A DNA stretch of 20,048 bases from positions 1 to 20,048 of the IMG/VR virus record IMGVR_UViG_3300025418_000511; one strand, 5' to 3'. The DNA comes from a virus. The position numbers and the translations under genes were made by a program. The notes below the pieces were generated by a model. It did not search any database, had not been told where the DNA came from, and saw only the letters and a program-made list of their open reading frames with translations. Shown here in pieces: positions 2,921-18,034 of the stretch (position 1 is its first letter; each line of letters opens with the position of its first letter).

Positions 2921-3409
2921 ATGCCACGTTCAGGTAGAGGCGGTGTTCGTCAAGGCACACCAGGTCAGGCTTACGGAAACCGTACCGATCTCAACGCAAG
3001 CCTGCCAGTCCAGACTGTCACAGGTCAGGGCTATGGCGTAGCGGCAGCACAGCAAGCCGCCCAGCGAGCAATTCCAATGGCGTCGCAACCAGTACCAGGT
3101 GCCAGCGCACCAGTCGCACCAGGTCAGGGTCCAATCCCTCAGCCAGCCCAGCCACAGCCAACAACTATCAGCAGTCAGTTGCCACCTATGCAGATGTACC
3201 CTGGCGAATTGAAGTTTGCTCACCCTACCGAAGCACCCAACGAACCCGTTACTACCGGACTGCCTTTTGGCGAAGGAGCCGGACCTGAAGCCTTGGCGAC
3301 CAACTTTGGTCCACCGCTATCCGATACCCTCGGTACTTTGGCTCGTTCTGCAAACGCAACCCCAGCACTGATGGACTTGGCGAGGGCCGCTAGAAACTTA
3401 GGTATCTAA
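2921..3409 (+). CDS. Small Pro/Gln/Ala-rich virion-associated protein
   Basis: 162 aa, function unknown. The N-terminus is basic and glycine-rich (MPRSGRGGVRQGTPGQAYGN); residues about 45-105 are rich in Pro, Gln and Ala and probably disordered; the end is a short amphipathic helix (LARSANATPALMDLARAARN). AAGGAG at 2907-2912 lies 8 bases before the ATG and inside the portal reading frame, which supports this start. The last base of its TAA is the first base of the next ATG, so it is probably translationally coupled to the giant gene. Small proteins with this N-terminus seem to recur beside portals in actinobacterial phages, which is a recollection and not a search result. It may be a minor head or ejection component. 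Confidence 0.75.
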   Translation: MPRSGRGGVRQGTPGQAYGNRTDLNASLPVQTVTGQGYGVAAAQQAAQRAIPMASQPVPGASAPVAPGQGPIPQPAQPQPTTISSQLPPMQMYPGELKFAHPTEAPNEPVTTGLPFGEGAGPEALATNFGPPLSDTLGTLARSANATPALMDLARAARNLGI

Positions 3410-6400
3410 TGGCAGCCGGTCCAGGTGCAGGTGAAGTAGCAGACATTCATAATGACTATGGCCTTGAGGTATCTCGCTATCAGCAAAACCTTAATCCGCT
3501 GACTGGTCAGAAGTTAAGCGCAGGGGAATACCTCGGCAAACTCACCTCTGAGAATCCTTATCTCATGCAGGCGAACCCACAACTCGCCTACTCATTAGCT
3601 CAGCAATACAAGTCTGGCTTGCTACCCAGCGACGTTAATTCGCAGTTGCACCTTGCCAAGATGATTCAAAGCGTGACCCAGCCGTACCAGAAGTTGTACG
3701 GAAGCAACGTTGGTATGTACGACACCCTAAATGAAAAGCAACCTGGCTGGTGGCAACAGGCTGTTACTGAGGGAACTAACTGGTTCGATAAAAACATCTT
3801 TAGCCCCATTCGTAATTTCATTGGCTCTAATCCGATTGCCAGAGACATAAACACTGGACTTAGTTATACGTTGCCTGGCGGTGCTGACTTGCAAACCGGC
3901 GTCGGTGCAGCAAGTGGAACCGTTGATTTAATTGGCGGTCTGTCCATGCTGGGTGTGAACACGGCTAACGATGTACGCAATCGCACGTTGCAAAACGGTG
4001 GTGACATAAACGGAGCATTAGCCGAAACACTTGGTCATGGTCTATACAGCGCAGCCGTTGGACCACACAACTTGCTATTTACGGCTAAGCACTACTACTC
4101 GTATTACAAGTCGCTTGAGAACATGTATGGCTCGGACTACGCCATGGGTACTCAGATTCCAGCTCTGCTGGCTGGTGCTTTTACTGGCGGTCTGGCTACC
4201 CCTGGTGCAGAAGCCGGTGCTGCAGCAACGGAAGTAATTGCCCCAACCATCGAGGATCAAGCCGCACTTGACGCCGCCCGTGCGACTATTGACCAAAGCC
4301 CCGAAGCCTCAGCCTTCAAGCAGTTGCTCGACAAGGCCGCTTCTGGCTGGCCTATCAGCAGTGAAGAGCGAGTGCAGATGGAAGCACTTATTGACCACTT
4401 GAAAGCTCAGGACAGCCAAGCCGTAGCCCGTGCCACGTTTGAGAACATGCTTGGCAAAGCCCGTGAACTGGCGACATCAAAGGTCGAAGGTGTTGGCTAC
4501 AACGAAATTAACGACGCCTTTTCGCAATTCAACCTAGGCAAGATTAGCCTTGACGAGTTCAAGAACGTTGCCGCCAAATACCTAGGCGAGTCACAGCAGA
4601 TTCAGTTCAACTCAGCCGCCGATGAGTTGTTCTCAGCCACCGCTAAAGCCTCTGACGCCGCCAACATCGCCGGTAATGCCATCTTAAAAAACGGTGACGC
4701 CTACTTACAAAAGTTTGGTGAGCAAGTGACGAAGAACGCTGGTAGGACGCTTCGCTTGGTTGGCAACATCAACAAGTTGATTGGTGGCAAGCAGGCTAAC
4801 GCTACTTACCTCTATGCCGCAGCACAGGCACAAGCCGACCCACACCTTTCGGCATTGTGGCAAGCTACGCAGGGCGGTGACGTAATCAACGCTGACGGCA
4901 CACGCACCGACCTTGGACTAGCACTTGCTAACTCGGTTGGTATTGACGGCATGTGGGGTACATTCACCAAGAGTCTGATTGACCTTGACCTTAACTGGGT
5001 TGTGGCTGACCCATTCGGTAGTGGGCTAGACGCCTTCAAGGAAGCACGTTCGTTTCATGGTTACTCAGGTATCCTCGGCAACTTATTCCCAGGCACAGGT
5101 ATCCGTGTCGAGGGCGACGTACACCGTGCCTACGCTTCTTATTCCAGCGTTCGCCGTGCCGTTAATTACATCGCCACTCACGACTTTAGCCAAATCAACA
5201 AAGCATTCAAGAACACCTTTTCTCGTTCACTAGCCGAGCGACTGGCAAAGGCTCAGACGCCACAAGAGGTGCTGTCTGTCCTTGAAGACGTGCGAGGTGG
5301 ACTGGACATCGTTGGCGATCGTATGCCAATGATGGGCTGGTACTCAATGGCTAAGACCGCCCTGCGTGGTGTGCCTAGCGAAGAGTTCGCCACTATTGGC
5401 GACGCCTTGGCTAGTGAAGACCCACTGGCTCAAGCCCTGATTCGTTCGATTGACGAGCAGACTGGCGTAGACCTGACCATTAACGATGTTGGGTTTGCTC
5501 TGGCTGACCCTGCCTCTAAGGCTGAGATTAAGTTAGGCGAGAAACTTCGTGCGCAATTCACCAGTCGCCCTATGTCTATCGAAGACGGGCAAATCCTTGA
5601 CTACGAGGTTCGCAACGGTTCACCTGCAAGTATCGTCAAGATGACTGACTGGCTCAAGCGTGTCTACATGAGTGACGAGTTCGTGAAGGCCGCTGGTGAT
5701 GCACTGACCCGTGCTGGTAACGACAACGAAAAGTGGAACCATGCGTTCGACAACATCATGTCGTTAGTGCTGTATCGCCACATGGCGGCTTCAATGCCTT
5801 ACGCTCAGTTCTTGCCTCACCTTGACATGATTAACTCCAAGGTACAAGAAGCACTACGCCGATTTACCGGACTTGACGGCGGTGGTGCCATGTCTGGTAT
5901 TGCCTATGGTGGCGGCGAGAAGGGTCTGATTGACTCCAAGGTAGACCAAGTAATCAAGGAAAACCCAGGGCCACTTGAGCCACCTACCAAGACCGCTGGT
6001 ATTGACGAATACAACCTGGGTGCTCGCCGTATTCCTGCCTATAGGAACATTCGTGACTTGGCTCGCTTTGCTACCGAGGTAGTCACCGCTACCAAGGACA
6101 GCGATTTACTTAAGTTTATTGCTGACGAGAACTCACGTCTTTCCCACATTGAGGCATTGGCACAACATGCTGGCGTAGACATCGAGCGAGCATTGGAGTC
6201 TTGGAAGCCAGAGGAAAACGCTTTCCTTATGGGCTCGCAGTCCAGTGCCGAAGCCTACGTTGCCAAGTCAAAAGAACTGATTGAACGATACATTGGGTGG
6301 AGCCCAAAGATTAAAGGCACTGGTGCCGAAGAGTATGCGAACATCATCAACGACCTGCAACAAGAAATCGCTAAGGGCACTGAACACCTCAAGCGTATTG

Positions 6401-9400
6401 ACTCTGAATTAGATCGTATTCACAGTGAAAACGTAGACCCAGCCAAGGCTATTCGTGAGCAGTTGGGCGAGAACATCGGTCAGCAGATTGACCGCCTAGC
6501 CGCCGAAGTTCGTGCCTCTAAGGACATGCTGGCTACGCTCAAGAAGGAAATCTCGTTTGGCTTCAAAAGCATGCCTAACGTTCGCAGAACTGCTGAGTAT
6601 GTAGCGGCACTTGCTGAACACCCAGACGTAGCGGCTAAGAACGCTTACGCCAAGGCCTTTGTTGAGAAGTGGGGCGAACTCAGTTCCCAGCGAGCCTTTG
6701 GCAAGATTGGTTCTTTCCTCAGCCACACGGCTATTTCTCACTTGCTGGAAAGGGGCTACCGCACTAGGTCGGGTGTAGCCGAGGACATTATCCAATGGTA
6801 CATGAACGCCTTTTGGAAGCCACTGGCGTTGCTATCTCAAGCCTGGGCGTTACACGTTTCGCTGTCTGAAGGAATCCTTAACTCAATCCGTATTGGTGGT
6901 GGCAACTTCTTTAAGGCCAAGCTCGCTTCGTCAATTACTAAGTACGAGGACAGTTTCGGCAAACTCTACATGGGCGAGCGTGAGCGTCGTGTGTTCCGTG
7001 ACTCGGTTGCTGCGTTCTTTCTTGGCATAGACCAAGGCTTGCTCAAGGGTATGGCACCAGCAGAGTATGACCGCCTAATGCAGAACGCCACCAACCTTTT
7101 CATCTTGAACGATGGTCACTTGCCACTTGGCGTACACGGCACAGGTAAGGACCTAAGTGGCGACGGCTTCAAGGTTGCTCAGTTTGAAGAATTGCCGGTG
7201 GTGGGCAGTGACGGTGAAATCAAGACAAGAAGGGGAACCCTCATCGACACCCACACCAAGTACCGTGAGAACGACAAGTACGCTGGCGCAGCCCTCTACC
7301 AAACCATCACCAGTAGCCACCAAGGTTTGCTTAGTCGCACGGCGGCTCAACTGTTGGACGCTGAGCAACGCCGTCTTGGTCAGTTGGAGTTCGACAAACT
7401 TGTAACTGGCGGCAAAGACCCTGCGTTCTACGAAAACTTAATCAACCGTAGGGCTGAGGCTGAGGTTCGCAAGCAAGGCAAGGTCAGCCTTCGCACCGGA
7501 AAAGTCAGCGAGAAGGCAACCCTTGTTGAGCGTGGTAAAGCCCGTGACCAAGTTCTGCGTGAACTAGGTGCCGCACAACTGAACCTTGAAGAGTTCCGAC
7601 CTAAGCTGGTTCAGCAGATTGAAGACCTCATTGGCAAACAGAGCGTTGAGTGGCGTAGTCGGTTCGAGCGCAACTCCCTTCGCTCGGCGGCTTACCCAGA
7701 ACTTGAGCCACACGCAGGTTGGGCTAACAGCGTTGTGGATCATGTCCTAGGAATCACCACACGCAACAACGAGATTTTCCCTGACCTCGTACGCCAGGTA
7801 GCCCACGGTGATTTCTGGAGCCGTGAGGAAACCGCCAAGTGGCTGAACGACAAAGTGCAAATGGGCGAGAATGTGCCTACTGGTTTCCCTGCCTACGCTA
7901 TGGCTGAAGGCCGCTGGAAGCAGATTGGCTCATCGGGCTTCGCTTACCTTAACGAGAAGATTCACTCCAAATGGCTGGCCCCGATTGTGAACAGCCTTGT
8001 TCGTGACCCCATGTTCGTCTACGAATACCACATTGAGATGGAGCGTTTGCTACCCAAGGTGGAAAGCGGTCTAATCTCCGAGGACGCTGCGATGATTGAG
8101 GCTCAATCCAACGCCGCTGTCCACATGTCCAAATACATTCACAACCCCTTGGACAAGTCCACGTGGGAAGAAAACATGCGTATTATCGCACCGTTCTACT
8201 TCGCTAAGAACCAAGCGTGGCGTCGTGCTTTCCGTTTGCTCGGTGAGGACCCAGCCAAGTTCGAGAAGTACCTCAAGACCAACCTGCTTTACACCAACTA
8301 CATTCAGCGAGCACGTTCCAAGAACGGCGTTTTGTCTTACCACATTCCAGGTTCGCAGTATGTCGTGGGCTGGGTCAATGGCGTTTTAGGAGCCGCCCTA
8401 CACGACAACATTGGCTCCTATGTTCTGCAAGCCAGTGGTAATTCATCAGACAGTTACATCATTACCGGAAACAGCAGTTCACTGACCGCTCTTGCCGACA
8501 ACTTTATTCAGATTCCTTACTCGAACGTAGTGACGGTTCCTGCCAAGATTACTTACGACTATTTTCAATTCCGTGCTCCGTTCCTTGCCAAGTTCATCGC
8601 TGGATTCCCTGGCATTGGTTTGGGTCAAGCAGGCATGCTTGGATCGTGGAAGAGCGACCTTATCCCTAGCTCATTCTTGCAGAATCTTGGGAAGGGTGTT
8701 TGGGGTCTTATTAGTGGCGACCACGTTGGTACTTACGTGACCCTTGAGAACCACGTCATTACCTCAAAGTTAGAAGTCAAGTACGCAGAGATTTACAACC
8801 AAGTAGCCGAGCACCTAATCAAGACTGGTCAGATTACGAGGCAGGACGCCAAGAACGGTACGGCTGGTGCTCAGATTCAATACTACGCACTTATGCAGTT
8901 GTCTCAGTGGGCTAAAAACCCAGATAACATTCACACTTTTACTACGCAAGCCAACGTGCACACGGCGGTTCTATGGGCGATTAAGACCTTCGGTTCGTTC
9001 CTATCACCTGCCGCATTGAGCGTCAGTTCGACCCAAAGTGCCCAGCAAGACATTGCCAAGATTGCTCAGATGAAGGGCCCAGACGGCAAGTTCCTGTACC
9101 CCAGTTACATTGACCAAGCCAACGAGTTTATGAAGTTGCACCCAACTCGTATCTTCGAGCTGATACCTCACACCTCTAGCCCAGAGGGTACGTTCTTGGA
9201 GAACGTAGGAACCACCAAGTTTCTTAACGAACACGCCGCTTTCGCTTTGAAATACAAGTACCTGACCGCAGCCATTACCCCCAGCATTGGTAAAGACGCC
9301 CAATACGACCCAGCCGCAGCCACTCTGCTTCTTTCCCTGCACCTTCGTGACCCCATGAGTGTCAAGGACACCGCCGACAACCTTTCGGTAATCATGGGTA

Positions 9401-9846
9401 ATGACCTGTATTACAGCACCGTCATGCCCCAATTCCAAAAGAACTACCCAGGCAACTACCAGAACGGCATGAGTCGTCAGGGAATTCAGGCTCTTAAGTC
9501 ATGGGCTACTGGCTACGGACAGACCACTAACCCACTTTGGTACGCCGACTTTACTGGCAAAGTTACTAAGTTTAAGGCTCAGCAGGCTTACGAGGAAGCA
9601 AAGCAGGTCATAGGTAACAAGTCCAATTTGTCGCAGTTGCCACTGTCTACCCAGCAGGCTCTTGGTGAATTGGTCAATCTGCGTAAGGAATACGAGCAGG
9701 CGTTCAAGGGCAGTAGCAAGTCGAGACAGTATCAGCTAGAAAACGAATGGTACAATTACATGACAAACCTGACGACCCAGAAAATCTGGCAGCCATACTC
9801 GAATCTTATTATCTCCGTCTTTAGAAAACTACCTAACCCACAATAA
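3409..9846 (+). CDS. Giant 2145-aa virion protein, putative internal/ejection protein
   Basis: Uninterrupted ORF of 2145 aa with the same composition and coupling as its neighbours, starting on a TAATG overlap. No enzymatic motif was recognised: I looked for lysozyme or transglycosylase, HExxH and RNA polymerase (DxDGD) signatures. Visible features are Gly/Ala-rich hydrophobic stretches near 150-190, 250-275 and 1725-1745; a long charged coiled-coil-like helix at about 972-1048; an aromatic segment near 1132-1160 (FWKPLALLSQAWALHVSLSE); and a PFYFAKNQAWRRAFRLL segment near 1595-1611. Its length, location in the head-gene cluster and mixed helical/hydrophobic makeup suggest an ejected internal protein comparable in role to T7 gp16 or the large N4 virion proteins. 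This is inference from context. Alternatives are a tape-measure-like protein or a divergent virion enzyme. Confidence 0.65.
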   Translation: MAAGPGAGEVADIHNDYGLEVSRYQQNLNPLTGQKLSAGEYLGKLTSENPYLMQANPQLAYSLAQQYKSGLLPSDVNSQLHLAKMIQSVTQPYQKLYGSNVGMYDTLNEKQPGWWQQAVTEGTNWFDKNIFSPIRNFIGSNPIARDINTGLSYTLPGGADLQTGVGAASGTVDLIGGLSMLGVNTANDVRNRTLQNGGDINGALAETLGHGLYSAAVGPHNLLFTAKHYYSYYKSLENMYGSDYAMGTQIPALLAGAFTGGLATPGAEAGAAATEVIAPTIEDQAALDAARATIDQSPEASAFKQLLDKAASGWPISSEERVQMEALIDHLKAQDSQAVARATFENMLGKARELATSKVEGVGYNEINDAFSQFNLGKISLDEFKNVAAKYLGESQQIQFNSAADELFSATAKASDAANIAGNAILKNGDAYLQKFGEQVTKNAGRTLRLVGNINKLIGGKQANATYLYAAAQAQADPHLSALWQATQGGDVINADGTRTDLGLALANSVGIDGMWGTFTKSLIDLDLNWVVADPFGSGLDAFKEARSFHGYSGILGNLFPGTGIRVEGDVHRAYASYSSVRRAVNYIATHDFSQINKAFKNTFSRSLAERLAKAQTPQEVLSVLEDVRGGLDIVGDRMPMMGWYSMAKTALRGVPSEEFATIGDALASEDPLAQALIRSIDEQTGVDLTINDVGFALADPASKAEIKLGEKLRAQFTSRPMSIEDGQILDYEVRNGSPASIVKMTDWLKRVYMSDEFVKAAGDALTRAGNDNEKWNHAFDNIMSLVLYRHMAASMPYAQFLPHLDMINSKVQEALRRFTGLDGGGAMSGIAYGGGEKGLIDSKVDQVIKENPGPLEPPTKTAGIDEYNLGARRIPAYRNIRDLARFATEVVTATKDSDLLKFIADENSRLSHIEALAQHAGVDIERALESWKPEENAFLMGSQSSAEAYVAKSKELIERYIGWSPKIKGTGAEEYANIINDLQQEIAKGTEHLKRIDSELDRIHSENVDPAKAIREQLGENIGQQIDRLAAEVRASKDMLATLKKEISFGFKSMPNVRRTAEYVAALAEHPDVAAKNAYAKAFVEKWGELSSQRAFGKIGSFLSHTAISHLLERGYRTRSGVAEDIIQWYMNAFWKPLALLSQAWALHVSLSEGILNSIRIGGGNFFKAKLASSITKYEDSFGKLYMGERERRVFRDSVAAFFLGIDQGLLKGMAPAEYDRLMQNATNLFILNDGHLPLGVHGTGKDLSGDGFKVAQFEELPVVGSDGEIKTRRGTLIDTHTKYRENDKYAGAALYQTITSSHQGLLSRTAAQLLDAEQRRLGQLEFDKLVTGGKDPAFYENLINRRAEAEVRKQGKVSLRTGKVSEKATLVERGKARDQVLRELGAAQLNLEEFRPKLVQQIEDLIGKQSVEWRSRFERNSLRSAAYPELEPHAGWANSVVDHVLGITTRNNEIFPDLVRQVAHGDFWSREETAKWLNDKVQMGENVPTGFPAYAMAEGRWKQIGSSGFAYLNEKIHSKWLAPIVNSLVRDPMFVYEYHIEMERLLPKVESGLISEDAAMIEAQSNAAVHMSKYIHNPLDKSTWEENMRIIAPFYFAKNQAWRRAFRLLGEDPAKFEKYLKTNLLYTNYIQRARSKNGVLSYHIPGSQYVVGWVNGVLGAALHDNIGSYVLQASGNSSDSYIITGNSSSLTALADNFIQIPYSNVVTVPAKITYDYFQFRAPFLAKFIAGFPGIGLGQAGMLGSWKSDLIPSSFLQNLGKGVWGLISGDHVGTYVTLENHVITSKLEVKYAEIYNQVAEHLIKTGQITRQDAKNGTAGAQIQYYALMQLSQWAKNPDNIHTFTTQANVHTAVLWAIKTFGSFLSPAALSVSSTQSAQQDIAKIAQMKGPDGKFLYPSYIDQANEFMKLHPTRIFELIPHTSSPEGTFLENVGTTKFLNEHAAFALKYKYLTAAITPSIGKDAQYDPAAATLLLSLHLRDPMSVKDTADNLSVIMGNDLYYSTVMPQFQKNYPGNYQNGMSRQGIQALKSWATGYGQTTNPLWYADFTGKVTKFKAQQAYEEAKQVIGNKSNLSQLPLSTQQALGELVNLRKEYEQAFKGSSKSRQYQLENEWYNYMTNLTTQKIWQPYSNLIISVFRKLPNPQ

Positions 9847-9854
9847 GGATCACC

Positions 9855-10439
9855 ATGGCAGACAAACCACTAGCAGAAGAGACGCAGGCCCCAGCCGGTA
9901 AGTCCATGTCGTTAGCCGACATGAAGCAACTAGCGCACGACTACGCCGTGCCTATGAGCGAGGGCACCTTGAAGCAGATTGCTGAGGACATGACCCCAGC
10001 CAAGGCTCAGGCGTTCGAGGACTACCTCAAGACCGCAGCCCAAGGGCTTTACCCCTCACTCGCCCCACAGATTGCGGCTGGTATCAAGACCGCCTACCTA
10101 CTCGACCCATACCGTCAAGTCGCTAAGCAAATGCTTGGTGAGCAAGCCGAGCCTGACTTTATGACCGACCCCAAGGCCAGTGCGGCTTTGAGCGGTGGAC
10201 ACGATCCTAAGACTGGACGCCCAGTTCCCATGAGCCTCGACGAGTGGAAAGGACACATTCGCTCTAACCCTGGCTTTGGCTACCAGAACACTCCAGCGGC
10301 TCAAGAGCAAATGCAGTCAATCGTTCAAGGACTACATCAAGAGATGGGCGCAGGTGAAGTAAACCCAGCGATGGCTCAAGCACCAATGCAGGCACCAGCT
10401 CCGGCTATGCCTAGCCCATCACCACAGGCAGGTATGTAA
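9855..10439 (+). CDS. Putative minor virion protein (194 aa)
   Basis: 194 aa. The SD AAGGA (9845-9849) overlaps the stop codon of the giant gene and sits 5 bases before the ATG. The body is helical with two conspicuous blocks: FEDYLKTAAQGLYPSLAPQI at about 53-72, and a DPKTGRPVPMSLDEWKGHIR segment beginning near residue 117 and followed by SNPGFGYQNT. The last 35 residues are a Pro/Ala/Met/Gln-rich tail, similar in character to the portal tail and the 162-aa protein. These blocks resemble a recurring family in actinobacterial phages, sometimes fused to larger proteins, but I know no assigned function. It is coupled by TAATG to the 533-aa gene, suggesting the two products work together, probably inside the capsid or at the portal vertex. 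Confidence 0.7.
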   Translation: MADKPLAEETQAPAGKSMSLADMKQLAHDYAVPMSEGTLKQIAEDMTPAKAQAFEDYLKTAAQGLYPSLAPQIAAGIKTAYLLDPYRQVAKQMLGEQAEPDFMTDPKASAALSGGHDPKTGRPVPMSLDEWKGHIRSNPGFGYQNTPAAQEQMQSIVQGLHQEMGAGEVNPAMAQAPMQAPAPAMPSPSPQAGM

Positions 10440-12040
10440 TGTCACGCAAGACCGCTAAACAAACGCCAAAGAAATCTACTACCACCACGACTAATCCTTA
10501 CGCCACTAGCGGAACTCCGTGGAGTAACGGTGGTAGTGCCGCAGGTTTAGGCACAATTAACTACCCTTCAGCCGACAAAATTACGGCGGCTCTGTCAAAG
10601 GCTGGACTACCAGCAGATGTGGTTGCTCAACTAGCCAAACTTGGTGGCACGGCTATTGACTCGTCTATTACTGCTGCGGCTAATGGATCGTACTCTGCCT
10701 CATCGGCGGCTGGTCTTGTAGACAAGGTATTGGCTCAAATGCCATACCAGTACGTTGGAAACCCCAAGGCTAATGAAGCCTGGTTCGACGTTATCTTTGG
10801 CGTTAAACCTACGTCTGCCAACCCCATTGGCATTTCTTACCAGACCTACCTTCAAGCACCTTTAGTTGTCTTAGGTGAAGTTGCCAAGGGAGCAACGGCT
10901 GCGGCTCAGTCAAGTGGCGTGGTCAGTGAAGTACCTGCCAACATCAACCTAGGCACTGGCTACACGGCGACTGAACTACGCAGTCAAGCCGTACAGCAAC
11001 AAATTATCAACGGTCAGTTGGTGGTGGCAAACGTCACCGCTTCAAAACAAGCCATGCTTGGTGCTTACGAGACAGCCAACGCACTACTTACCAACTACGA
11101 CTTAGCCTCAGTTGCTCCACAACTTTATAACTGGGTATTTAAGGACGGCTACACCAATCCCAAAGAACTGATGACGTTGATTCGGGGAACCGACCAATAC
11201 AAGCAACAATTTGCCGGACTTATTGAGCAACAACAGAACGCTGCGGCTATGGGCACTAAGCCCTTGACCGAAGCAGGCTACATGGCACTGACTCAAAAGT
11301 ACCAAGACATCGCTCAAAGTGCAGGTTTGCCTATCGCCATGCTTACTCAAGTAGACCCAAAGACCAAGCGCACCGTTATGGCTGACTTGGCTGCCGGTCA
11401 GGTATCGGCGGCTGAGTTCTCACGCCGAGTCTCGCTGGGCTACCAAGCAGTAGACAGTCTGCCTCAACAGGTCAAGGACGCCTTTATGCAACAACACGGT
11501 CTGACCCAAGGCGACTTAGTGGCTTACTTTCTCGATCCTGAGAAGGGCATGCAAGCCATCACAAACAAGAAAAACGCCCCTGCCCTTAGCCAGTCGGCTC
11601 TCGACCTAGCCAACCAACAGGCAATCGAGCGTCAGAAGCAGGCCCTCGGAGCCAACCTTGGCTACTCAGCCCAAGCCGCTGGACTCCAGAACTTCACCCC
11701 TAATCAGGCTATGGACCTAGGTGAGATGGTCCGTGTGGCTAGTCTAGGCAACGCTCAGGACCCCTACAACACCCTGACTTTAGGACAGGCCCAGAAAGCC
11801 CTTCAGACGGCTTCTAAGGACGTTGCGCTGACCGGCAGTGCTCCAGGTGGGACAGCCCCAACCGTGGACACTACGACCCTTATAGGGGCTCAGGTGGCAG
11901 GCTACGAGGGCACCAACCTACAGGCCGCTCAGTCTACAGCCCAGAAAGCCGCTCAAGCAGCCGCAGCCCCCTTCGAGAAGGGTGGCGGTTACGCCGAGAC
12001 AGCCAAGGGTGTTACCGGCGTAGGTTCAGGCGCAATTTAA
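10439..12040 (+). CDS. Putative minor virion/internal protein (533 aa)
   Basis: 533 aa, starting on the TAATG overlap with the upstream gene. The N-terminus is basic and Thr-rich (SRKTAKQTPKKSTTTTT), followed by Ser/Ala-rich helices. The middle, about 225-375, is the most family-like part: a GTDQYKQQFAGL motif from residue 250, an AGYMALTQKYQDIAQSAGLP segment, LAAGQVSAAEFSRRVSLGY near 317-335 and GDLVAYFLDPEKGM. This arrangement recurs, as far as I recall, in minor virion proteins of actinobacterial phages. The C-terminal 60 residues are Ala/Gln/Gly-rich. No catalytic motif is visible. The gene closes the block between portal and scaffold and is followed by the only long non-coding gap, so it probably ends a translational unit. 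Confidence 0.72.
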   Translation: MSRKTAKQTPKKSTTTTTNPYATSGTPWSNGGSAAGLGTINYPSADKITAALSKAGLPADVVAQLAKLGGTAIDSSITAAANGSYSASSAAGLVDKVLAQMPYQYVGNPKANEAWFDVIFGVKPTSANPIGISYQTYLQAPLVVLGEVAKGATAAAQSSGVVSEVPANINLGTGYTATELRSQAVQQQIINGQLVVANVTASKQAMLGAYETANALLTNYDLASVAPQLYNWVFKDGYTNPKELMTLIRGTDQYKQQFAGLIEQQQNAAAMGTKPLTEAGYMALTQKYQDIAQSAGLPIAMLTQVDPKTKRTVMADLAAGQVSAAEFSRRVSLGYQAVDSLPQQVKDAFMQQHGLTQGDLVAYFLDPEKGMQAITNKKNAPALSQSALDLANQQAIERQKQALGANLGYSAQAAGLQNFTPNQAMDLGEMVRVASLGNAQDPYNTLTLGQAQKALQTASKDVALTGSAPGGTAPTVDTTTLIGAQVAGYEGTNLQAAQSTAQKAAQAAAAPFEKGGGYAETAKGVTGVGSGAI

Positions 12041-12052
12041 TCCTGATACACT
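12025..12052 (+). promoter_or_regulatory. Candidate extended -10 promoter for the scaffold/capsid unit
   Basis: TGATACACT (12044-12052) matches the extended -10 pattern TGnTAnnnT just after the 533-aa gene. A poor -35 candidate, TTCAGG, lies 16 bases upstream at 12025-12030 inside that gene. A start near 12059 would give a leader of about 140 bases before the scaffold ATG. Position before capsid genes is sensible, but the -35 match is weak and the motif could occur by chance. Confidence 0.27.
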
Positions 12053-12198
12053 AAGTCTAGGAGTTCGGCCCCGTTCGCTACGGGTGAGCTGTACGCCAAA
12101 CCCGTCAGGGAGTTGCACAATCCCTGGTGCGTAACGTGTGCGTTTATCCATTTAATTTACCTCTGAATTAAGTGCGTACCCTTGAAGGAGCGATCAAC
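12041..12198 (+). promoter_or_regulatory. Structured leader upstream of scaffold gene
   Basis: This is the only substantial non-coding gap (158 bases) in an otherwise gapless module. It contains a hairpin at 12070-12084 (CCCGT, 5-base loop, ACGGG) and a second at 12106-12126 (CAGGGA, 9-base loop, TCCCTG), with a possible outer pairing of TACGC (12092-12096) with GCGTA (12129-12133). ACGGGT (12080-12085) can instead pair with ACCCGT (12100-12105), so the first stem has a competing partner. An AT-rich stretch follows (12141-12172). No U-run follows either hairpin, so a classic intrinsic terminator is unlikely. The function is unknown: 5' leader, RNA-processing site or translational control are all possible. 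Confidence 0.45.
12184..12190 (+). promoter_or_regulatory. Shine-Dalgarno deciding the scaffold start
   Basis: GAAGGAG lies 8 bases before the ATG at 12199. The longer in-frame alternative, GTG at 12172, would place this sequence inside the coding region, so ATG 12199 is preferred. Confidence 0.75.
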
Positions 12199-12690
12199 AT
12201 GTCAGACTTCGAAACTAACGAAGACGAGTCCACTAGCGACAACGTACTTGACCCGAACATTCGGCGTCAGTTGCGAGAAGCAGAAAAGGCTCGGAAAGAG
12301 TTAGAAGTGGCAAAGGCCGAACTGGAAGCGCAGAAGCGTGACCTTCAGTTCACTAAGGCAGGAATCCCTGAAACGGGCATAGGTGCATTACTTCGCAAGG
12401 CTTACGATGGCCCAGCAGACGCTGAATCTATCGCTAAGGCGGCGCAGGAGTACGGTATCCTTCAGCCTAACCAGGTTCAAGCCGAAGCCCCAGCCAATGA
12501 TGTTGAACTTGAAGCCCTGCGTCGTGCCCAAGGTGCGACCATCGGTACGTCAGGAGCCGGTCCCGACTTGGGACAGGAGTTCATGGCTCGTTTGAGTGAA
12601 GCGTCGAACCCCGAAGATGTTATGAAGATCGTGATGAACCCAGAATACGAGGCTGCCCTCAACATCTGGACTTCAAGGAGTGCTCGCTGA
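12199..12690 (+). CDS. Capsid scaffolding protein
   Basis: 163 aa from the ATG at 12199, chosen over an in-frame GTG at 12172 because of the SD at 12184-12190. It is acidic at the N-terminus (SDFETNEDESTSD), followed by a charged coiled-coil-like helix at about 20-50 (REAEKARKELEVAKAELEAQ), then KAGIPETGIGALLRKAYDGP and an EYGILQPNQ segment. Acidic head plus coiled coil, small size and position directly before the major capsid gene are classic for scaffolds that direct procapsid assembly and leave the head afterwards. No protease domain is visible. The 3' end takes part in a hairpin that precedes the capsid start. Confidence 0.85.
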   Translation: MSDFETNEDESTSDNVLDPNIRRQLREAEKARKELEVAKAELEAQKRDLQFTKAGIPETGIGALLRKAYDGPADAESIAKAAQEYGILQPNQVQAEAPANDVELEALRRAQGATIGTSGAGPDLGQEFMARLSEASNPEDVMKIVMNPEYEAALNIWTSRSAR

Positions 12691-12710
12691 TTCTCTAAAC
12701 AGAAAGCGAG
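12683..12710 (+). promoter_or_regulatory. Hairpin across scaffold stop and capsid RBS region
   Basis: CTCGCT (12683-12688) pairs with AGCGAG (12705-12710), and TTCT (12691-12694) pairs with AGAA (12701-12704). Together these make ten base pairs with a two-base GA bulge and a CTAAAC loop. The scaffold TGA (12688-12690) is inside the stem, which ends 9 bases before the capsid ATG. The only SD-like sequence for the capsid gene (GCGAG) is the 3' arm. This arrangement suggests translational control or RNA processing, but that has not been tested. Confidence 0.5.
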
Positions 12711-12719
12711 AACGGCCAA

Positions 12720-13757
12720 ATGGCTGACTCATTTACGGGTTCAGGAACCCTTGATTTCTCGAAGGCTGCTTATGACCGCATGGCGTACTTCGCCTTGCGT
12801 CCAGAGCTTTACTTCGACCAGGCTGCCGATGTGCAACCTACTGCTCAATCCATGCCAGGTGCGTCGGTTCAGTTCACCATTGTGAACGACTTGCCGATTG
12901 CTTCAACGGCATTGACCGAAACCTCAGACATCTCAACCGTCGCTCTGTCAGACAGCGTTGTTTCGCTGACCTTGGCTGAATACGGTAACGGTGTTCTTAC
13001 CACCGCTAAGTTGCGTGGTACCTCATTCGTAGACATTGACCCAATCGTTGCCAACGTAGTTGGTTACAACGCTGGTGTTTCTTTGGACACGATTGCTCGT
13101 GCTGCTCTCGACAGCGGTACCAACGTACAGTACGCTTCGGGCTTGGGTGCAACTGCACTTCAGACCTCGGTTACTGCTCGTTCAGCCGTTGCTGCGACCA
13201 ACACCATCTCCGCTTTGGACATTCGTGTTGCTCGTGCCCGTCTGCGCTCGCAGAACGTACCTACCTTCGGTGGTTACTACGTTGGATTCATTCACCCAGA
13301 CCTCGTTGCAGACCTTCAGGGCGAAACGGTTGCTGGCTCGAACATTCAGGGCTGGCGTGCTCCACACGTCTACGCTCAGCCAGGTGAAATCTGGACTGGT
13401 GAGCTCGGTGCGTTCGAGGGTGTCCGTTGGATCGAAACTCCACGCGCTCCTGTATTCGCTGCTGCTGGTGCTTCGTCCACCAACGTTTACGGCACCATCA
13501 TCATGGGTCGCCAGGCTCTTGCCAAGGCTCACTCATACGTAGACGGCAACTCAGCGTTCCCACACGTTGTACCTGGTCCTATCACCGACCGTCTGCGCCG
13601 CTTCGTACCAATGGGTTGGTACTGGCTCGGTGCTTACGGAATCTTCCGTCAGGCTTCAGTTATCCGTATCGAGTCAAGCTCGCTCTTGGGCTCCGACATC
13701 GGAACTGGTTTCAACCCTGCCATTGACACGGGAGAATCCGGAAACCCACTGGCTTAG
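12720..13757 (+). CDS. Major capsid protein (HK97 fold, N4-gp56-like)
   Basis: 345 aa. It follows the scaffold and has the features of the N4-gp56 family: early ASVQFTIVNDLPIASTALTETSD, then SLTLAEYGNGVLTTAKL, a helix-forming ISALDIRVARARLRSQNVP segment, YYVGFIHPDLVADLQ with IHPD at 191-194, GELGAFEGVRWIETPRAPVF, and a C-terminal YGTIIMGRQALAKA followed by the PMGWYWLGAYGIFRQASVIR strand. It forms the icosahedral shell. Codons here look strongly biased toward GCT, GTT, CGT and GGT forms, as expected for the most highly expressed gene, yet no strong Shine-Dalgarno precedes the ATG; a hairpin lies there instead. No N-terminal delta domain or protease site was seen. The length is close to usual for this family. 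Confidence 0.88.
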   Translation: MADSFTGSGTLDFSKAAYDRMAYFALRPELYFDQAADVQPTAQSMPGASVQFTIVNDLPIASTALTETSDISTVALSDSVVSLTLAEYGNGVLTTAKLRGTSFVDIDPIVANVVGYNAGVSLDTIARAALDSGTNVQYASGLGATALQTSVTARSAVAATNTISALDIRVARARLRSQNVPTFGGYYVGFIHPDLVADLQGETVAGSNIQGWRAPHVYAQPGEIWTGELGAFEGVRWIETPRAPVFAAAGASSTNVYGTIIMGRQALAKAHSYVDGNSAFPHVVPGPITDRLRRFVPMGWYWLGAYGIFRQASVIRIESSSLLGSDIGTGFNPAIDTGESGNPLA

Positions 13758-13784
13758 TCCAGTAGCGGCTTAGAAGGAGACAGT

Positions 13785-13943
13785 ATGCCTTGGCCTCGTC
13801 AATGTGCCCACTGCGGAAGCATGGACATACAAGCTGGTATAGATGAGATTATGTGTCTCACCTGTGGCGGTTTGACTGACAAGGACGGGCATGCTGTCTC
13901 CCGACAGGCCCAACACACCTCAGAAGAAAAAATTGAGTTTTAA
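13785..13943 (+). CDS. 52-aa zinc-ribbon protein
   Basis: A short ORF with a strong SD (AGAAGGAGA at 13772-13780) four bases before its ATG. Two CxxC knuckles are visible: CAHC at residues 7-10 and CLTC at 24-27, separated by 13 residues, the layout of a small zinc ribbon. The remainder is polar with an acidic end (TSEEKIEF). It sits between the capsid gene and other small structural genes. It could stabilise a protein or bind nucleic acid; a virion or assembly role is inferred only from location. Confidence that it is coding comes from the SD, the paired Cys motifs and the tight spacing to both neighbours. Confidence 0.8.
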   Translation: MPWPRQCAHCGSMDIQAGIDEIMCLTCGGLTDKDGHAVSRQAQHTSEEKIEF

Positions 13944-13952
13944 GAAAGCACC

Positions 13953-14132
13953 ATGACAATCCCTACCGGACTTGGACTTACCCGTGGTTTGGAATCAGCC
14001 AACCTACCTGGCACCTTCATCGCTAACCGTGCGACTGCTGCCTCTGCTAACGACGCCAAGTATGGTCGTCTTAGCACTCAACCCGACGCATGCTACTGCG
14101 GTTGCTGCGATCTAGAAAAGAGCCCTCTCTAA
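13953..14132 (+). CDS. 59-aa Cys-cluster protein, hypothetical
   Basis: A short ORF starting 9 bases after the zinc-ribbon stop, with only a weak AAGAAAG upstream. Most of the sequence is Ala/Thr/Gly-rich (PTGLGLTRGLESANLPGTF), and the C-terminus carries CYCGCC with cysteines at 47, 49, 51 and 52. Its TAA overlaps the next ATG by one base, which argues that it is translated. The function is unknown; the cysteines could bind metal or form disulphides. An overlapping longer ORF in another frame (from 14090) is better explained as an upstream extension of the following gene. Confidence 0.62.
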   Translation: MTIPTGLGLTRGLESANLPGTFIANRATAASANDAKYGRLSTQPDACYCGCCDLEKSPL

Positions 14133-14386
14133 TGGAATCACGCAAAGGCACACAAATCTCAGAGTACGACCTTCGTAGCACCGCTGCGAACTCTATTGAC
14201 ACTGGCATTATCCCCAGCAACGTCACTGGTCAAACCACCAATGGACCTACCCTTCGTGGCGTAGAAGCCAACACCGCTCGTGGCGTTAAGGGTTCACCCC
14301 TGGTCACCGGCATTACCCCAGTAACCTACGGAGCCAACACTGACGCTCCTGAAGTTACCCCCTACCGCACCTACGGAGAAAACTAA
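14132..14386 (+). CDS. 84-aa hypothetical structural-cluster protein
   Basis: 84 aa from ATG 14132. An upstream in-frame ATG at 14090 lies inside the preceding gene and lacks an SD, whereas 14132 forms a TAATG overlap, the junction type used repeatedly here. The sequence is Gly/Thr/Asn-rich with low hydrophobicity (NVTGQTTNGPTLRGVEANTA, later YGANTDAPEVTPYRTYGEN), suggestive of an extended or beta-rich minor protein. It is coupled by a second TAATG to the next gene. I do not recognise the family. The position after the capsid gene makes a decoration or minor head protein possible. Confidence 0.68.
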   Translation: MESRKGTQISEYDLRSTAANSIDTGIIPSNVTGQTTNGPTLRGVEANTARGVKGSPLVTGITPVTYGANTDAPEVTPYRTYGEN

Positions 14387-14628
14387 TGGCTGACCGCTTT
14401 TCATCAGAGTTCGACGTTGAGCGTCGCCAAGGCGAAGTCTCGATGTACGTAGACATGACCCCTGCCACCGTTCTTGAAGTGAACCTCATGGGCGGTTACA
14501 GCCGCACCACTAAGCCAGTTGGTCAGACACCTGCTGAGGGAATCAACACCAATGGTTCCGCAAGCCGTGGCACCACTGACGCTATTGCCGCTGCCAAGCT
14601 TGGACTCCCAGTAGTAAACAAGCGGTAG
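14386..14628 (+). CDS. 80-aa hypothetical structural-cluster protein
   Basis: 80 aa, TAATG-coupled to the upstream gene. The N-terminal half is charged and amphipathic (FSSEFDVERRQGEVSMYVDM), and the rest is Gly/Ala/Thr-rich, ending in IAAAKLGLPVVNKR. No motif was recognised. The next gene starts 6 bases after its TAG. It is probably a small virion or assembly protein, by context only. Confidence 0.68.
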   Translation: MADRFSSEFDVERRQGEVSMYVDMTPATVLEVNLMGGYSRTTKPVGQTPAEGINTNGSASRGTTDAIAAAKLGLPVVNKR

Positions 14629-14634
14629 TACCTC

Positions 14635-15021
14635 GTGGCAACTTTCACGCCACCGCAGGTAAAGGACAATCCACCGATCTTGCCGGACTCTATGGGTCCG
14701 GCTCGTCGGCTATGGAGATACTTTCCTAACCGTGCTCGGTATGTAGCTGTGTTCGCTCTCAGCGATGGCACGTTCGTCCAGGACACCGCCACCAACGAGA
14801 ACTCCAACACAAACATTCCGTACCCATACAACCCATACGACCCATCGGCCCCGTACTCAACGTCTTACTACATTGACTTCGAGCAGAAGCCACCGCACCC
14901 TACAGTTTCAACTGTTAGCCAGAACCCTTACGTCACTAAGGTATACTTAGGTGTTACTCAAGTCTCGGATAGCGAGGCTGCGGCACTCACGGCTGCCGGA
15001 TACGGAGATTTGATTTCATAA
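14635..15021 (+). CDS. 128-aa conserved phage structural-cluster protein
   Basis: 128 aa with a GTG start 6 bases after the previous stop; no convincing SD, so reinitiation is likely. The centre has a beta-strand RYVAVFALSDGTFVQD followed by a Pro/Tyr/Asn-rich loop (YPYNPYDPSAPYSTSYY). The C-terminal portion VTKVYLGVTQVSDSEAAALT and the AAGYGDLIS end match a motif I recall from many actinobacterial phages next to fibre and connector genes: a VYLG strand, then a short helix ending in TAAGYG. The exact role is unknown; a minor virion protein near the vertex is a reasonable guess. Confidence 0.75.
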   Translation: MATFTPPQVKDNPPILPDSMGPARRLWRYFPNRARYVAVFALSDGTFVQDTATNENSNTNIPYPYNPYDPSAPYSTSYYIDFEQKPPHPTVSTVSQNPYVTKVYLGVTQVSDSEAAALTAAGYGDLIS

Positions 15022-15344
15022 TGGCACGACACGTTCCCTCACCAGATTGCAAGCCAGACTGCTTCGGTTGCAAGATTCAGTCAGTCTCAATGGCGGCTTC
15101 GGCTATGCCTACTCGCTCGGACGCTGGGCGTATCAACTTCGAGACGAAGAAGAGCCACGCTGACGTAGCGGCTTACAAGCGTCTGCGTAAGGACGGCTTA
15201 CAGCCCAAGACGGTGAAGGGTGCCGCGGCACTAGAGAGTCGTGCAGTATCGAAGTGGGAAGTAGAGACTGGTCAGAACCTCGGTGGTAACGCCAAGCTCG
15301 GTGCCAAGTTCGACGCCGCCCAAGCCATTCTAGGAAGCAACTAA
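15021..15344 (+). CDS. 107-aa protein with N-terminal Cys motif
   Basis: 107 aa, TAATG-coupled on both sides. The N-terminus has a CKPDCFGCK motif (C10, C14, C17), and PSPDCKP before it may add to a metal site together with H4. A basic helical stretch follows (VAAYKRLRKDGLQPKTVKGA), then LESRAVSKWEVETGQ. The AYKRLRKDGLQP and LE-A-(S/T)K-(F/W)E-(V/I)E(S/T)G elements are familiar from many actinobacterial phage genes at this position, but I know no experimentally assigned function. The basic surface and Cys cluster would suit nucleic-acid or protein binding. Confidence 0.75.
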   Translation: MARHVPSPDCKPDCFGCKIQSVSMAASAMPTRSDAGRINFETKKSHADVAAYKRLRKDGLQPKTVKGAAALESRAVSKWEVETGQNLGGNAKLGAKFDAAQAILGSN

Positions 15345-18034
15345 TGCCATTACTGTCCGGTGTTGTAGACGGCCCCTCTGGAGCCCTGAACGGTGCACAG
15401 GTAGACGCCTGGCTCGCCTCACGCTTTACCGTAGTTCCAGCCGCAGGCACAACCCCACCGTCAGGATCGCCTGACGCTGGCCCAGTCATAACCGGCACTA
15501 ACTTCGGTGGACCTGGACAGTGGGAACTTACGGTCCCTTCTTCTTCGGCATACTACGTTCGTGTTACCTACCCAGTGGGTGCTACGAACGCTAAGTCCTA
15601 TTGGGCTTACGACAATACATTGGTTCAATCACAAGGCCCACAAGGGGCACAAGGAGCGCAGGGTGCTCAAGGTACGGCAGGTGCTACGGGTTCGACGGGC
15701 GCACAAGGTTATCAAGGAAATCAAGGAACAACGGGCGCACAAGGTGCCCAAGGTTCGCAAGGTACACAAGGTTTTCAGGGTGTTCTTGGAGCCCAAGGAC
15801 CCCAAGGCGTACAGGGCAATCAGGGTACGCAAGGCACCCAAGGATTCCAAGGAGTAACTGGAGCGCAAGGTACGACTGGCTCACAGGGCCCACAAGGCTA
15901 CCAAGGCCCACAGGGTTATCAAGGACTAATCGGGCCACAGGGCTCACAGGGAACAACGGGTTCTCAAGGCGCTCAAGGACCGCAGGGCTATCAGGGTGCT
16001 CAAGGTAATCAAGGAACACAGGGTACGCAGGGTGCTACAGGCTCTCAGGGGCCACAGGGATACCAAGGTGTGCAGGGTGCTGGAACTCAGGGCGCACAAG
16101 GAGCGCAGGGTGCTCAAGGTGGTAACGGAAACCAAGGCTTACCAGTTGGACTTACTGGTGCTACAACGGCTACTCGTTATGTAGGCGGTACTACAAACGG
16201 AGCACCTACTACTGGGACATTTGCTGTGGGCGATTTTGTTGTTGATCAAACAGCAACCATTTGGGTTTGCACGGTTGCCGGTTCGCCAGGAACGTGGTGG
16301 TCTACCATCTCGGACCACATTGTTTCTCGCACGGCAACTGCTACGGCAAAGGTAAACGAAGTAACATTGTTTACGGGTTCAACTTCAGGGCAAACAATTT
16401 CCGCTCCAAGCAGCCCGCAAGACGGTGCATCTTGGACATTTATTAACCACTCTACCGTCTCAGTGACATTAGGTTTTTCGTCAAACTCAATGGTGCCACT
16501 TGGTAGCAGTGCAGGAGTAACCACCTACACGGTATCAGTTAATGGTGCTTACACATTTATTAACAATGCTGGTGGCCAGTGGTACATGGTAACAGCCAAC
16601 GGTGCAGATCACTTAGTAGACACCTCACAAGTCAGCCTTGACAAGTGGGGAGCTGCTGCTGCCAACGTTGCAATGGGCGCTAACAAAATTACGGGTCTTG
16701 CTAACGGCACCGTCTCAACTGACGCCGCCGCCTTTGGTCAGATTCCTACCGCCCTTCCACCTAACGGTTCAGCCGGTGGTGACCTTACAGGTAGTTACCC
16801 CAACCCCACTTTGGCCGCCGCTGGTACCGCTGGCACTTATGGTTCGGCCACGGCAGTACCTATTGTAACCACCGACTCCAAGGGCCGAGTTACTTCCGTT
16901 ACTACCACCGCACCTAGCGACACAACCAAGATTCCCCTTTCGACAGTTACTACTGCTGGCGACCTCATTGTTGGGACTGGCTCTAGCACTGTTTCACGCC
17001 TGGGCTTAGGAACTGCTGGTCAGTCTCTCGTAGTGAACTCTGGCGCAACTGGTCTGCAATACGCCAACACCGGCGCAGGGCCAGTCGTGTTTTACTCCGC
17101 AAATGGAACGGCTTTACCTAACGAAACCTCAATTGTTACCTTTAGTTTGGGTATCGTCACACTTCCCACCGCACCACCAAACGGAACCGTAAATACGATA
17201 AGCAGTACCGGAAACTCATTCTACATTGCAAGGGGTGGTTCAACTGACACAATTACTTACATTTCGGCAGGTAGTACAAATAGCGGCGCAACCTCTTTTG
17301 CAACATTTGGCAACGGCGCTAGGCGTTTTGTTTATAACTCAGGCGTTTGGACAGAAATTGGCGCACCAACACTAAGTGCTGGAGTCGGACAGGTACCAAT
17401 TAGTTCAGGTGGAACTGGGGCAATTACCGTATCAACGGCTCGTGGAAACTTGGGCATAACGCCAGGTTCAGTATTCCCATCGGCCCACGGTGTCAAGGCT
17501 TGGACATTTGACCCAGCCACTATTGCAAGCAGCAGTACTATTATTCCTACTAAGGGCGTTGCTTACGCAACACGAATCCACATGACTACGGCTGCAACTG
17601 TTTCAACAGTTGGATTCTTTACTAATGCTGGTTCGGGAGCCTCTATGGTAAACTCCTACGTCAGTTTGTATTCAGCAGCAGGAGCCGTTCTTGGATACGC
17701 TTCGTTGGGTTCTGCCTTGCTTAACACTGGGTACAACACTTTTACCCTTACGGCTGTTGGTTCGCTGGCACTTGCTAACGACACCGATTACTACATTGTT
17801 TTTCAAATTGGTACAAGTACTACAACTGCACCAGCCTTGGTTGTGGCAGGTGACTCTAGCGGTGGTGGACCCCCAAACACAGGGGCGTTAATGAACTTCA
17901 ATACCACAAACGCCGCGGGGGCATTAAACGGGCGTTGTTCGTTTTGGGGAACAAGTCTGAACACCACTCCGGCTGCGGTTGGAGCAAACACCCCTGCGTT
18001 TAATCAGAGCAACTTCTTCGCCACACTCAACTAA
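15344..18034 (+). CDS. Collagen-like tail fibre / receptor-binding protein
   Basis: 896 aa, TAATG-coupled upstream. Residues 1-95 form a small beta domain (SGVVDGPSGALNGAQVDAWL) that probably anchors the fibre to the virion. Residues 98-267 are a collagen-like Gly-X-Y tract, dominated by Gln in Y. A module at about 271-320 has GDFVVDQTATIWVCTVAGSP. Around 430-560 come tail-fibre repeats (NKITGLANG near 447; GGDLTGSYPNPTL from 478; TAGDLIVGTGSSTVSRLGLG). A C-terminal jelly-roll-like beta domain starts near AWTFDPAT (719), with DTDYYIVFQIG later, and is a good candidate receptor binder. A homotrimeric fibre with a collagen-like stalk is the family expectation. The receptor cannot be read from sequence. 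Confidence 0.88.
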   Translation: MPLLSGVVDGPSGALNGAQVDAWLASRFTVVPAAGTTPPSGSPDAGPVITGTNFGGPGQWELTVPSSSAYYVRVTYPVGATNAKSYWAYDNTLVQSQGPQGAQGAQGAQGTAGATGSTGAQGYQGNQGTTGAQGAQGSQGTQGFQGVLGAQGPQGVQGNQGTQGTQGFQGVTGAQGTTGSQGPQGYQGPQGYQGLIGPQGSQGTTGSQGAQGPQGYQGAQGNQGTQGTQGATGSQGPQGYQGVQGAGTQGAQGAQGAQGGNGNQGLPVGLTGATTATRYVGGTTNGAPTTGTFAVGDFVVDQTATIWVCTVAGSPGTWWSTISDHIVSRTATATAKVNEVTLFTGSTSGQTISAPSSPQDGASWTFINHSTVSVTLGFSSNSMVPLGSSAGVTTYTVSVNGAYTFINNAGGQWYMVTANGADHLVDTSQVSLDKWGAAAANVAMGANKITGLANGTVSTDAAAFGQIPTALPPNGSAGGDLTGSYPNPTLAAAGTAGTYGSATAVPIVTTDSKGRVTSVTTTAPSDTTKIPLSTVTTAGDLIVGTGSSTVSRLGLGTAGQSLVVNSGATGLQYANTGAGPVVFYSANGTALPNETSIVTFSLGIVTLPTAPPNGTVNTISSTGNSFYIARGGSTDTITYISAGSTNSGATSFATFGNGARRFVYNSGVWTEIGAPTLSAGVGQVPISSGGTGAITVSTARGNLGITPGSVFPSAHGVKAWTFDPATIASSSTIIPTKGVAYATRIHMTTAATVSTVGFFTNAGSGASMVNSYVSLYSAAGAVLGYASLGSALLNTGYNTFTLTAVGSLALANDTDYYIVFQIGTSTTTAPALVVAGDSSGGGPPNTGALMNFNTTNAAGALNGRCSFWGTSLNTTPAAVGANTPAFNQSNFFATLN
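15635..16144 (+). repeat. Collagen-like Gly-X-Gln coding repeat
   Basis: Encodes 49 consecutive Gly-X-Y triplets, a two-residue Gly-Ala interruption at fibre residues 245-246, then seven more. About three quarters of Y positions are Gln. The DNA repeat is imperfect because glycine and glutamine codons alternate freely (GGT, GGC, GGA, GGG; CAA, CAG). The long alternative-frame ORFs here are by-products of the nine-base periodicity. Confidence 0.93.

Follow-up and report, generated by a model that had tools for sequence, protein, structure and literature searches.

A giant head-block protein with four fixed insertion slots in freshwater phages: a proposed internal virion cargo platform

The giant gene and its conserved block

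The window analyzed here is a whole IMG/VR record (IMGVR_UViG_3300025418_000511; 20,048 bases), and the feature of interest is a giant plus-strand gene at 3409 to 9846. The frame is intact over 2,145 codons, from an ATG at 3409 to a stop at 9844 to 9846, and belongs to a tightly packed run of plus-strand genes that begins at the portal gene (1025 to 2917; phrog_104, E = 4e-9). Between portal and giant lies P0004 (2921 to 3409), which encodes a P/Q/G-rich protein of 162 aa (phrog_8200) and is the conserved partner directly upstream; the giant's start codon overlaps the stop codon of P0004 by one base (TAATG) and is preceded by AGG. P0005 (9855 to 10439; 194 aa; phrog_34303/6654) starts nine bases past the end of the giant and is overlapped by P0006 (10439 to 12040; 533 aa; phrog_8424), the third member of the block. 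There follow a scaffold candidate, P0007 (12172 to 12690; phrog_7813), so assigned from its position ahead of the capsid gene, and the major capsid protein gene (12720 to 13757; PF13252, phrog_1357). A preliminary description of this DNA had placed a single intact open reading frame in a head-gene cluster, and that is what we find, with the portal on one side and the scaffold-like gene and capsid on the other. Elsewhere in the window are a terminase (phrog_38 match) and, at 15344 to 18034, an 896-aa protein with some 50 collagen-like G-x-y triplets at residues 98 to 247, which is probably a tail fiber.

The giant frame is real and under purifying selection. Against the sister contig L002, the giant has a dN/dS of 0.116 over 1,652 codons (98.5 synonymous and 40.5 nonsynonymous differences), while the portal has 0.009 in the same comparison; thus, the giant is constrained, yet it evolves much faster than the portal.

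Wherever a listed locus extends across these junctions, the order portal/P0004/giant/P0005/P0006/P0007/capsid is kept. The block is shared by many IMG/VR contigs from fresh water, by Streptomyces podophages of the Beephvirinae, and by phage E7, whose host, Ca. Planktophila, is a freshwater actinobacterium in culture. By scanning IMG/VR with capsid and giant profiles, we gathered a family of about 70 distinct long giant sequences, in which complete proteins run from 1,814 aa upward and the longest open frame has 3,531 codons, its 5′ end being cut. Two of the contigs deserve separate mention. L078, a capsid relative at 59% identity, has no recognizable giant in the 10 kb that precede its capsid gene; the giant block may have been replaced there. 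In L003, the capsid gene (4822 to 5879) is broken into two overlapping frames, probably by a sequencing or assembly error.

As a single query, the window giant returned nothing significant from Pfam, PHROGs, PDB, or phage GenBank (tblastn on phages), and phage GenBank searches with other family members likewise returned no relatives. No enzyme domain is detectable anywhere in the protein by Pfam, PHROGs, or PDB searches, in agreement with the initial report of no recognizable enzyme motif, and Pfam families such as LPD or MuF are not matched by the core either. The large open reading frame found elsewhere in the genome of Bacillus phage Pony has no detectable similarity to the giant in the part compared. 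The only match in a genome collection came from a metagenome bin labeled Legionella; the 6-kb contig concerned is probably misbinned phage DNA and was not used to assign a host.

With 21 giants aligned, conservation falls in three core blocks: residues 450 to 940 (4756 to 6228), 1110 to 1300 (6736 to 7308), and 1400 to 2145 (7606 to 9843), the last being mostly helical and the best conserved. Conservation peaks at residues 1550 to 1650, where a family signature, MSKYIHNPLDKSTWEENMRIIAPFYFAKNQAWRRAFRLL (residues 1573 to 1611; 8125 to 8241), consists of invariant or near-invariant columns with the consensus HNPxDKTxWExNMRxxAPFYFAKNQAWRRAxR. An AlphaFold2 (AF2) model of residues 1118 to 2145 is mostly helix (pLDDT, 78; pTM, 0.56), and a model of residues 430 to 1117, only partly confident within the first core block, has a pLDDT of 64. 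The latter includes helices at residues ~973 to 1006 and 1013 to 1053 (6325 to 6567), where PDB profile matches are to coiled coils only and at nonsignificant E values; the long coiled-coil-like helix noted at the outset is therefore borne out. The several hydrophobic Gly/Ala-rich segments noted with it are not. The protein is indeed rich in Ala and Gly (11.0% and 8.3%), but by hydropathy no 19-residue window reaches a Kyte-Doolittle value of 1.5 (the maximum is 1.38, at residues 165 to 183), and shuffled versions of the sequence have a mean of 3.3 windows that do.

Foldseek searches of PDB with the two modeled parts gave no fold match, whether to T7 core proteins, to a polymerase, or to anything else; when PDB was searched with the family profile, coiled-coil noise was all that came up. 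These results bear on two alternatives. The first is that the giant is a virion enzyme with a catalytic conserved core, such as a virion RNA polymerase of the N4 type or an enzyme of unknown fold. Phage N4 packages a giant RNA polymerase, the giants are conserved across the group, and the capsid protein of the relative Abafar is of the N4 type (TIGR04387); like the N4 polymerase, the giant comes from a group of phages with this type of capsid protein. However, no single-subunit RNA polymerase domain was found in the window giant by sequence search of PDB or by fold in the two modeled parts, a virion RNA polymerase appears in BFVD only at an E value of 1.4, and the most conserved stretch, residues 1573 to 1611, is a helical region without a recognizable catalytic motif. 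We regard a catalytic core as very improbable.

The second alternative, that the giant is a tail tape-measure protein (or, as first suggested, an analogue of one), fits its size, its helical content, and weak, nonsignificant matches to tape-measure proteins in BFVD. A tape-measure protein belongs to a long tail, and its gene lies downstream of those for tail tube and tail chaperones, whereas the giant gene precedes the capsid gene, its relatives are short-tailed (Abafar is a podovirus by transmission electron microscopy), and none of the scanned window proteins matched a tail-tube, tail-chaperone, or tape-measure family. We regard this reading as the least probable of all those considered here.

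Giants of Streptomyces and Planktophila phages

The capsid protein of the window is 38 to 41% identical to the capsids of Streptomyces podophages of the Beephvirinae, and in three of these phages, Immanuel3, FlowerPower, and Abafar, a "hypothetical protein" of about 1,640 aa stands at the giant's place in the equivalent block. In phage E7 of Ca. Planktophila LanE-43 (OX376640; L008, 8703 to 14021), a cultured freshwater actinophage (PMC10202952), that place is taken by an open frame of 1,772 codons. Comparison of the family profile with that of the Streptomyces giants by hhalign gave a probability of 91.6% and an E value of 8e-7 over 542 columns reaching to near the C terminus; a second match, of profile columns 397 to 503 with 204 to 320, is colinear but weak and lies near the start of the first core block. 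The E7 giant is matched by the family HMM at an E value of 1e-12 over its C-terminal part and by hhalign at 97.3%. The PHROG of the Streptomyces giant, phrog_10618 (unknown function), is matched by 15 of 41 family members (best E value, 3e-7), the window protein itself not being among them, and the AF2 model of residues 1118 to 2145 finds the giant of phage Manuel in BFVD by Foldseek at an E value of 3.7e-7.

Given that hhalign, the family HMM, phrog_10618, and Foldseek agree, profile and model comparisons provide solid support for membership of the C-terminal half in a Beephvirinae-type giant family. Over the C-terminal ~540 columns, and only there, homology to the Beephvirinae giants is firm. 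Gene position tells the same story as sequence and profile homology, the order being portal, small genes, giant, one or more phrog_6654 proteins, a phrog_8424 protein, scaffold, and capsid. The differences are also clear. The Beephvirinae giants (Immanuel3 gp09 and relatives) are about 1,635 to 1,648 aa long, in contrast to 2,145 in the window, and pairwise similarity is not significant; the E7 giant is also shorter than that of the window, with detectable homology in its C-terminal part only. In the Streptomyces podophages, moreover, the giant is directly followed by two proteins, one with an NlpC/P60 domain (E = 4e-30) and the other with an SLT domain (E = 2.5e-5), each domain standing ahead of a shared phrog_6654 module at the C terminus. 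P0005 of the window is the counterpart of that module minus the enzyme.

WhiB genes are present in 12 of 18 related records, and WhiB is described as exclusive to Actinobacteriota and is used as an actinophage marker (PMC10202952). Based on these genes and on the Streptomyces and Ca. Planktophila relatives, the window phage, a lake virus, likely infects actinobacteria.

Four slots and their exchangeable contents

In the family HMM alignment, long insertions occur mainly at four sites, which in window numbering are residues 941 (6229 to 6231), 1186 (6964 to 6966), 1357 (7477 to 7479), and 1548 (8050 to 8052), with few outside them (e.g., at 1095). Slots 941 and 1186 each lie within a stretch with a pLDDT below 50, the former in the model of residues 430 to 1117 and the latter in a loop of the C-terminal model. 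Inserts of at least 100 aa fill one or more slots in 21 of 49 non-redundant members; empty slots are the commonest state (28 of 49). The window giant is a bare backbone, with all four slots empty and no domain detected elsewhere.

What do the relatives carry? Cassettes at slot 941 are 154 to 842 aa long and include ADP-ribosyltransferase (ART), NADAR plus DUF4326, and ParB-like domains, among others; those at slot 1186 are 108 to 445 aa; those at slot 1357 are 111 to 1,566 aa and include kinase-like domains, among others; and those at slot 1548 are 196 to 1,171 aa and include inserts that are zincin-like by an HExxH motif and ParB-like by eye. Matches above the Pfam cutoffs are DUF4326 (1e-33) and NADAR (6e-25) in L127, ADPrib_exo_Tox, an ADP-ribosyltransferase exoenzyme (5e-14), in L121, ParB_N (1e-7) in L030, and PI3_PI4_kinase (4e-7) in L113; below the cutoff are DUF3990 in L097 and PI3_PI4_kinase in L106 and L035. 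The kinase domains are of a PI4K/HipA-like kind. Two further kinds of insert were set aside. Zincin-like inserts (L150, L111, and L151) were so named solely from a conserved HExxH with a DExxAE farther downstream, and they have no Pfam or PDB match, and GNAT-like inserts (L044, L142, L053, L132, L083, and L111), recognized by eye and by a nonsignificant PDB acetyltransferase match (E = 0.6), were not counted. The slot 1186 inserts of L143, L139, and L152 (327 to 445 aa) are not convincingly matched by any family; the inserts of L143 and L139 are alike.

The giant of L127 (3,033 aa; frame at 6822 to 15923) lies in a virion gene cluster, and its insert DNA (9459 to 12101) encodes NADAR and two DUF4326 stretches. 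NADAR goes unmentioned in the account of polyvalent proteins by Iyer et al. 2017 (PMC5512222), and a later survey describes phage NADAR as typically standalone (PMC9503650); the arrangement in L127 is thus unusual. It is possible that this insert is counterdefense cargo.

The cleanest exchange is seen between L131 (the contig that is L044 in our insert/core comparison) and L130, which are 99.4% identical over 14 kb (8,681 plus 5,661 bases) and differ in only one block. That block, 8682 to 9246 in L131 (565 bp) and 9557 to 10019 in L130 (463 bp), is an in-frame cassette wholly within the giant, at slot 941, and the encoded inserts of 188 and 154 aa are 16% identical. In a more distant pair, L020 and L091, the cores are 62% identical over 1,914 columns and the inserts are 220 and 0 aa long. 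Two presence/absence pairs with near-identical cores, L133/L135 and L149/L141, were discarded because the contigs of L135 and L141 end at the slot. On a tree of the core, at least 12 insert gains or losses fall across well-supported branches, and the window giant sits beside relatives with ART-like inserts (L020, L021, and L097) and without inserts (L091 and L093). In total, the L131/L130 swap, the L020/L091 pair, and the changes on the tree indicate that inserts have repeatedly been gained, lost, and replaced at the slots.

This variability has a bearing on a third alternative, namely, that the giant is an assembly factor, scaffold-like or core organizing, which is needed inside the forming head and does not enter the cell. 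Its place between portal and scaffold in a single packed gene run would suit such a role, as would its fast evolution and variation in length. Nonetheless, a scaffold would have little use for a backbone of some 1,800 to 3,500 residues bearing ART, NADAR, or ParB-like domains, and P0007 is a separate scaffold candidate. We consider an assembly factor improbable.

A proposed ejection and cargo platform

The family can be compared with two known kinds of phage protein. Phages encode polyvalent proteins among their virion genes, and injection is predicted for them (Iyer et al. 2017; PMC5512222). They are likewise giant, the window giant too is encoded among late virion genes, and the kinds of domain found in them (ART, ParB-like, kinase, and zincin; PMC5512222) recur in members of the giant family. 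By definition, however, a polyvalent protein combines at least two disparate functional domains in one polypeptide; Pfam finds none in the window giant, whose core also lacks matches such as LPD or MuF, and finds two, NADAR and DUF4326, in the relative L127. The second kind is represented by the gp16 ejection proteins of T7 and P22, which are likewise large and helical, come from a small head-protein operon, and have a mosaic domain makeup (PMC8954989). The window giant has no SLT peptidoglycan hydrolase domain and no sequence or fold match to these proteins, and its gene lies between portal and scaffold, whereas the gp16 genes lie after the tail genes. An SLT domain is not strictly required of the type, since P22 gp16 lacks it too, but membrane-spanning elements are described as universally conserved in gp16 homologues, and by hydropathy the giant has none. 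Since the window giant by itself is neither polyvalent nor of the T7 gp16 type, we place it solely in the Beephvirinae-type giant family, of which it is a divergent member.

Ejection modules of short-tailed phages pair large helical proteins of the head cluster with cell wall hydrolases (PMC8954989). We posit that the giant is an ejection protein, carried inside the virion of a short-tailed actinobacteriophage and injected, and that it serves as an exchangeable cargo platform in the polyvalent style, the window copy being cargo free; we think this reading rather better than even. The ejection part of the reading follows from gene position and company, that is, from the NlpC/P60 and SLT partners. 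Judging by its position, the giant would be a virion component, made together with portal and capsid and then packed in the head. It would be delivered into the cell with the DNA and with the products of the adjoining P0004 to P0006. The conserved, mostly helical core would do the structural and delivery work, while loops at the four fixed sites would take up whole enzyme domains that vary between phages, so that the family would act as a delivery platform with swappable cargo, in the manner of polyvalent proteins. Several observations stand against a cargo platform: no cargo is detectable in the window copy, which itself falls outside the polyvalent definition, the giant has no transmembrane-like segment, unlike T7 gp16, its modeled parts have no PDB fold match, and L078 has a related capsid without a recognizable giant upstream.

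Could the giant instead be a plain ejection machine in the style of T7 gp16, with the core as a conduit or DNA clamp and the inserts of relatives as incidental decoration rather than delivered effectors? The late block adjoining the portal, the SLT and NlpC/P60 partners in Streptomyces phages, and the mostly helical core are all consistent with this, as is the fact that slots are most often empty, and mosaicism and variable size are known features of ejection proteins (PMC8954989). On the other hand, the window copy lacks an SLT domain and membrane-like segments, there is no PDB fold match and hence none to the solved T7 core proteins, and the inserts are of protein-modifying, nuclease, and ADP-ribose-processing kinds, which are suited to the host cytoplasm. 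We consider this reading unlikely, although less so than the other alternatives.

Among the three options that had been raised for the gene beforehand, a large ejection machine is the best supported, given the conserved late block, the Streptomyces hydrolases, and the podovirus relative. A divergent virion enzyme is not supported for the window copy and is half right for the family, in which enzyme domains are inserted into the backbones of relatives.

Freshwater actinobacteria are among the most abundant bacteria of lakes, and their phages are poorly understood. We speculate, at somewhat less than even confidence, that actinobacteriophages of a class widespread in fresh water rely on a single dedicated giant virion protein as their standard cargo chassis, with four fixed docking loops into which interchangeable enzymes of host manipulation and counterdefense (ADP-ribosyltransferases, NADAR/DUF4326 ADP-ribose processors, ParB-like nucleases, and kinases) have been recombined very recently, so that phages near-identical in other respects inject different effectors. 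The window's bare copy has a use of its own, since it defines the minimal backbone. For phrog_10618, hitherto of "unknown function," the work provides a functional hypothesis that is directly testable in cultured Streptomyces phages. If the giant is injected, the slots would be where these phages keep their first-minute tools for host takeover and counterdefense, and the contents of the slots could be read from any metagenome.
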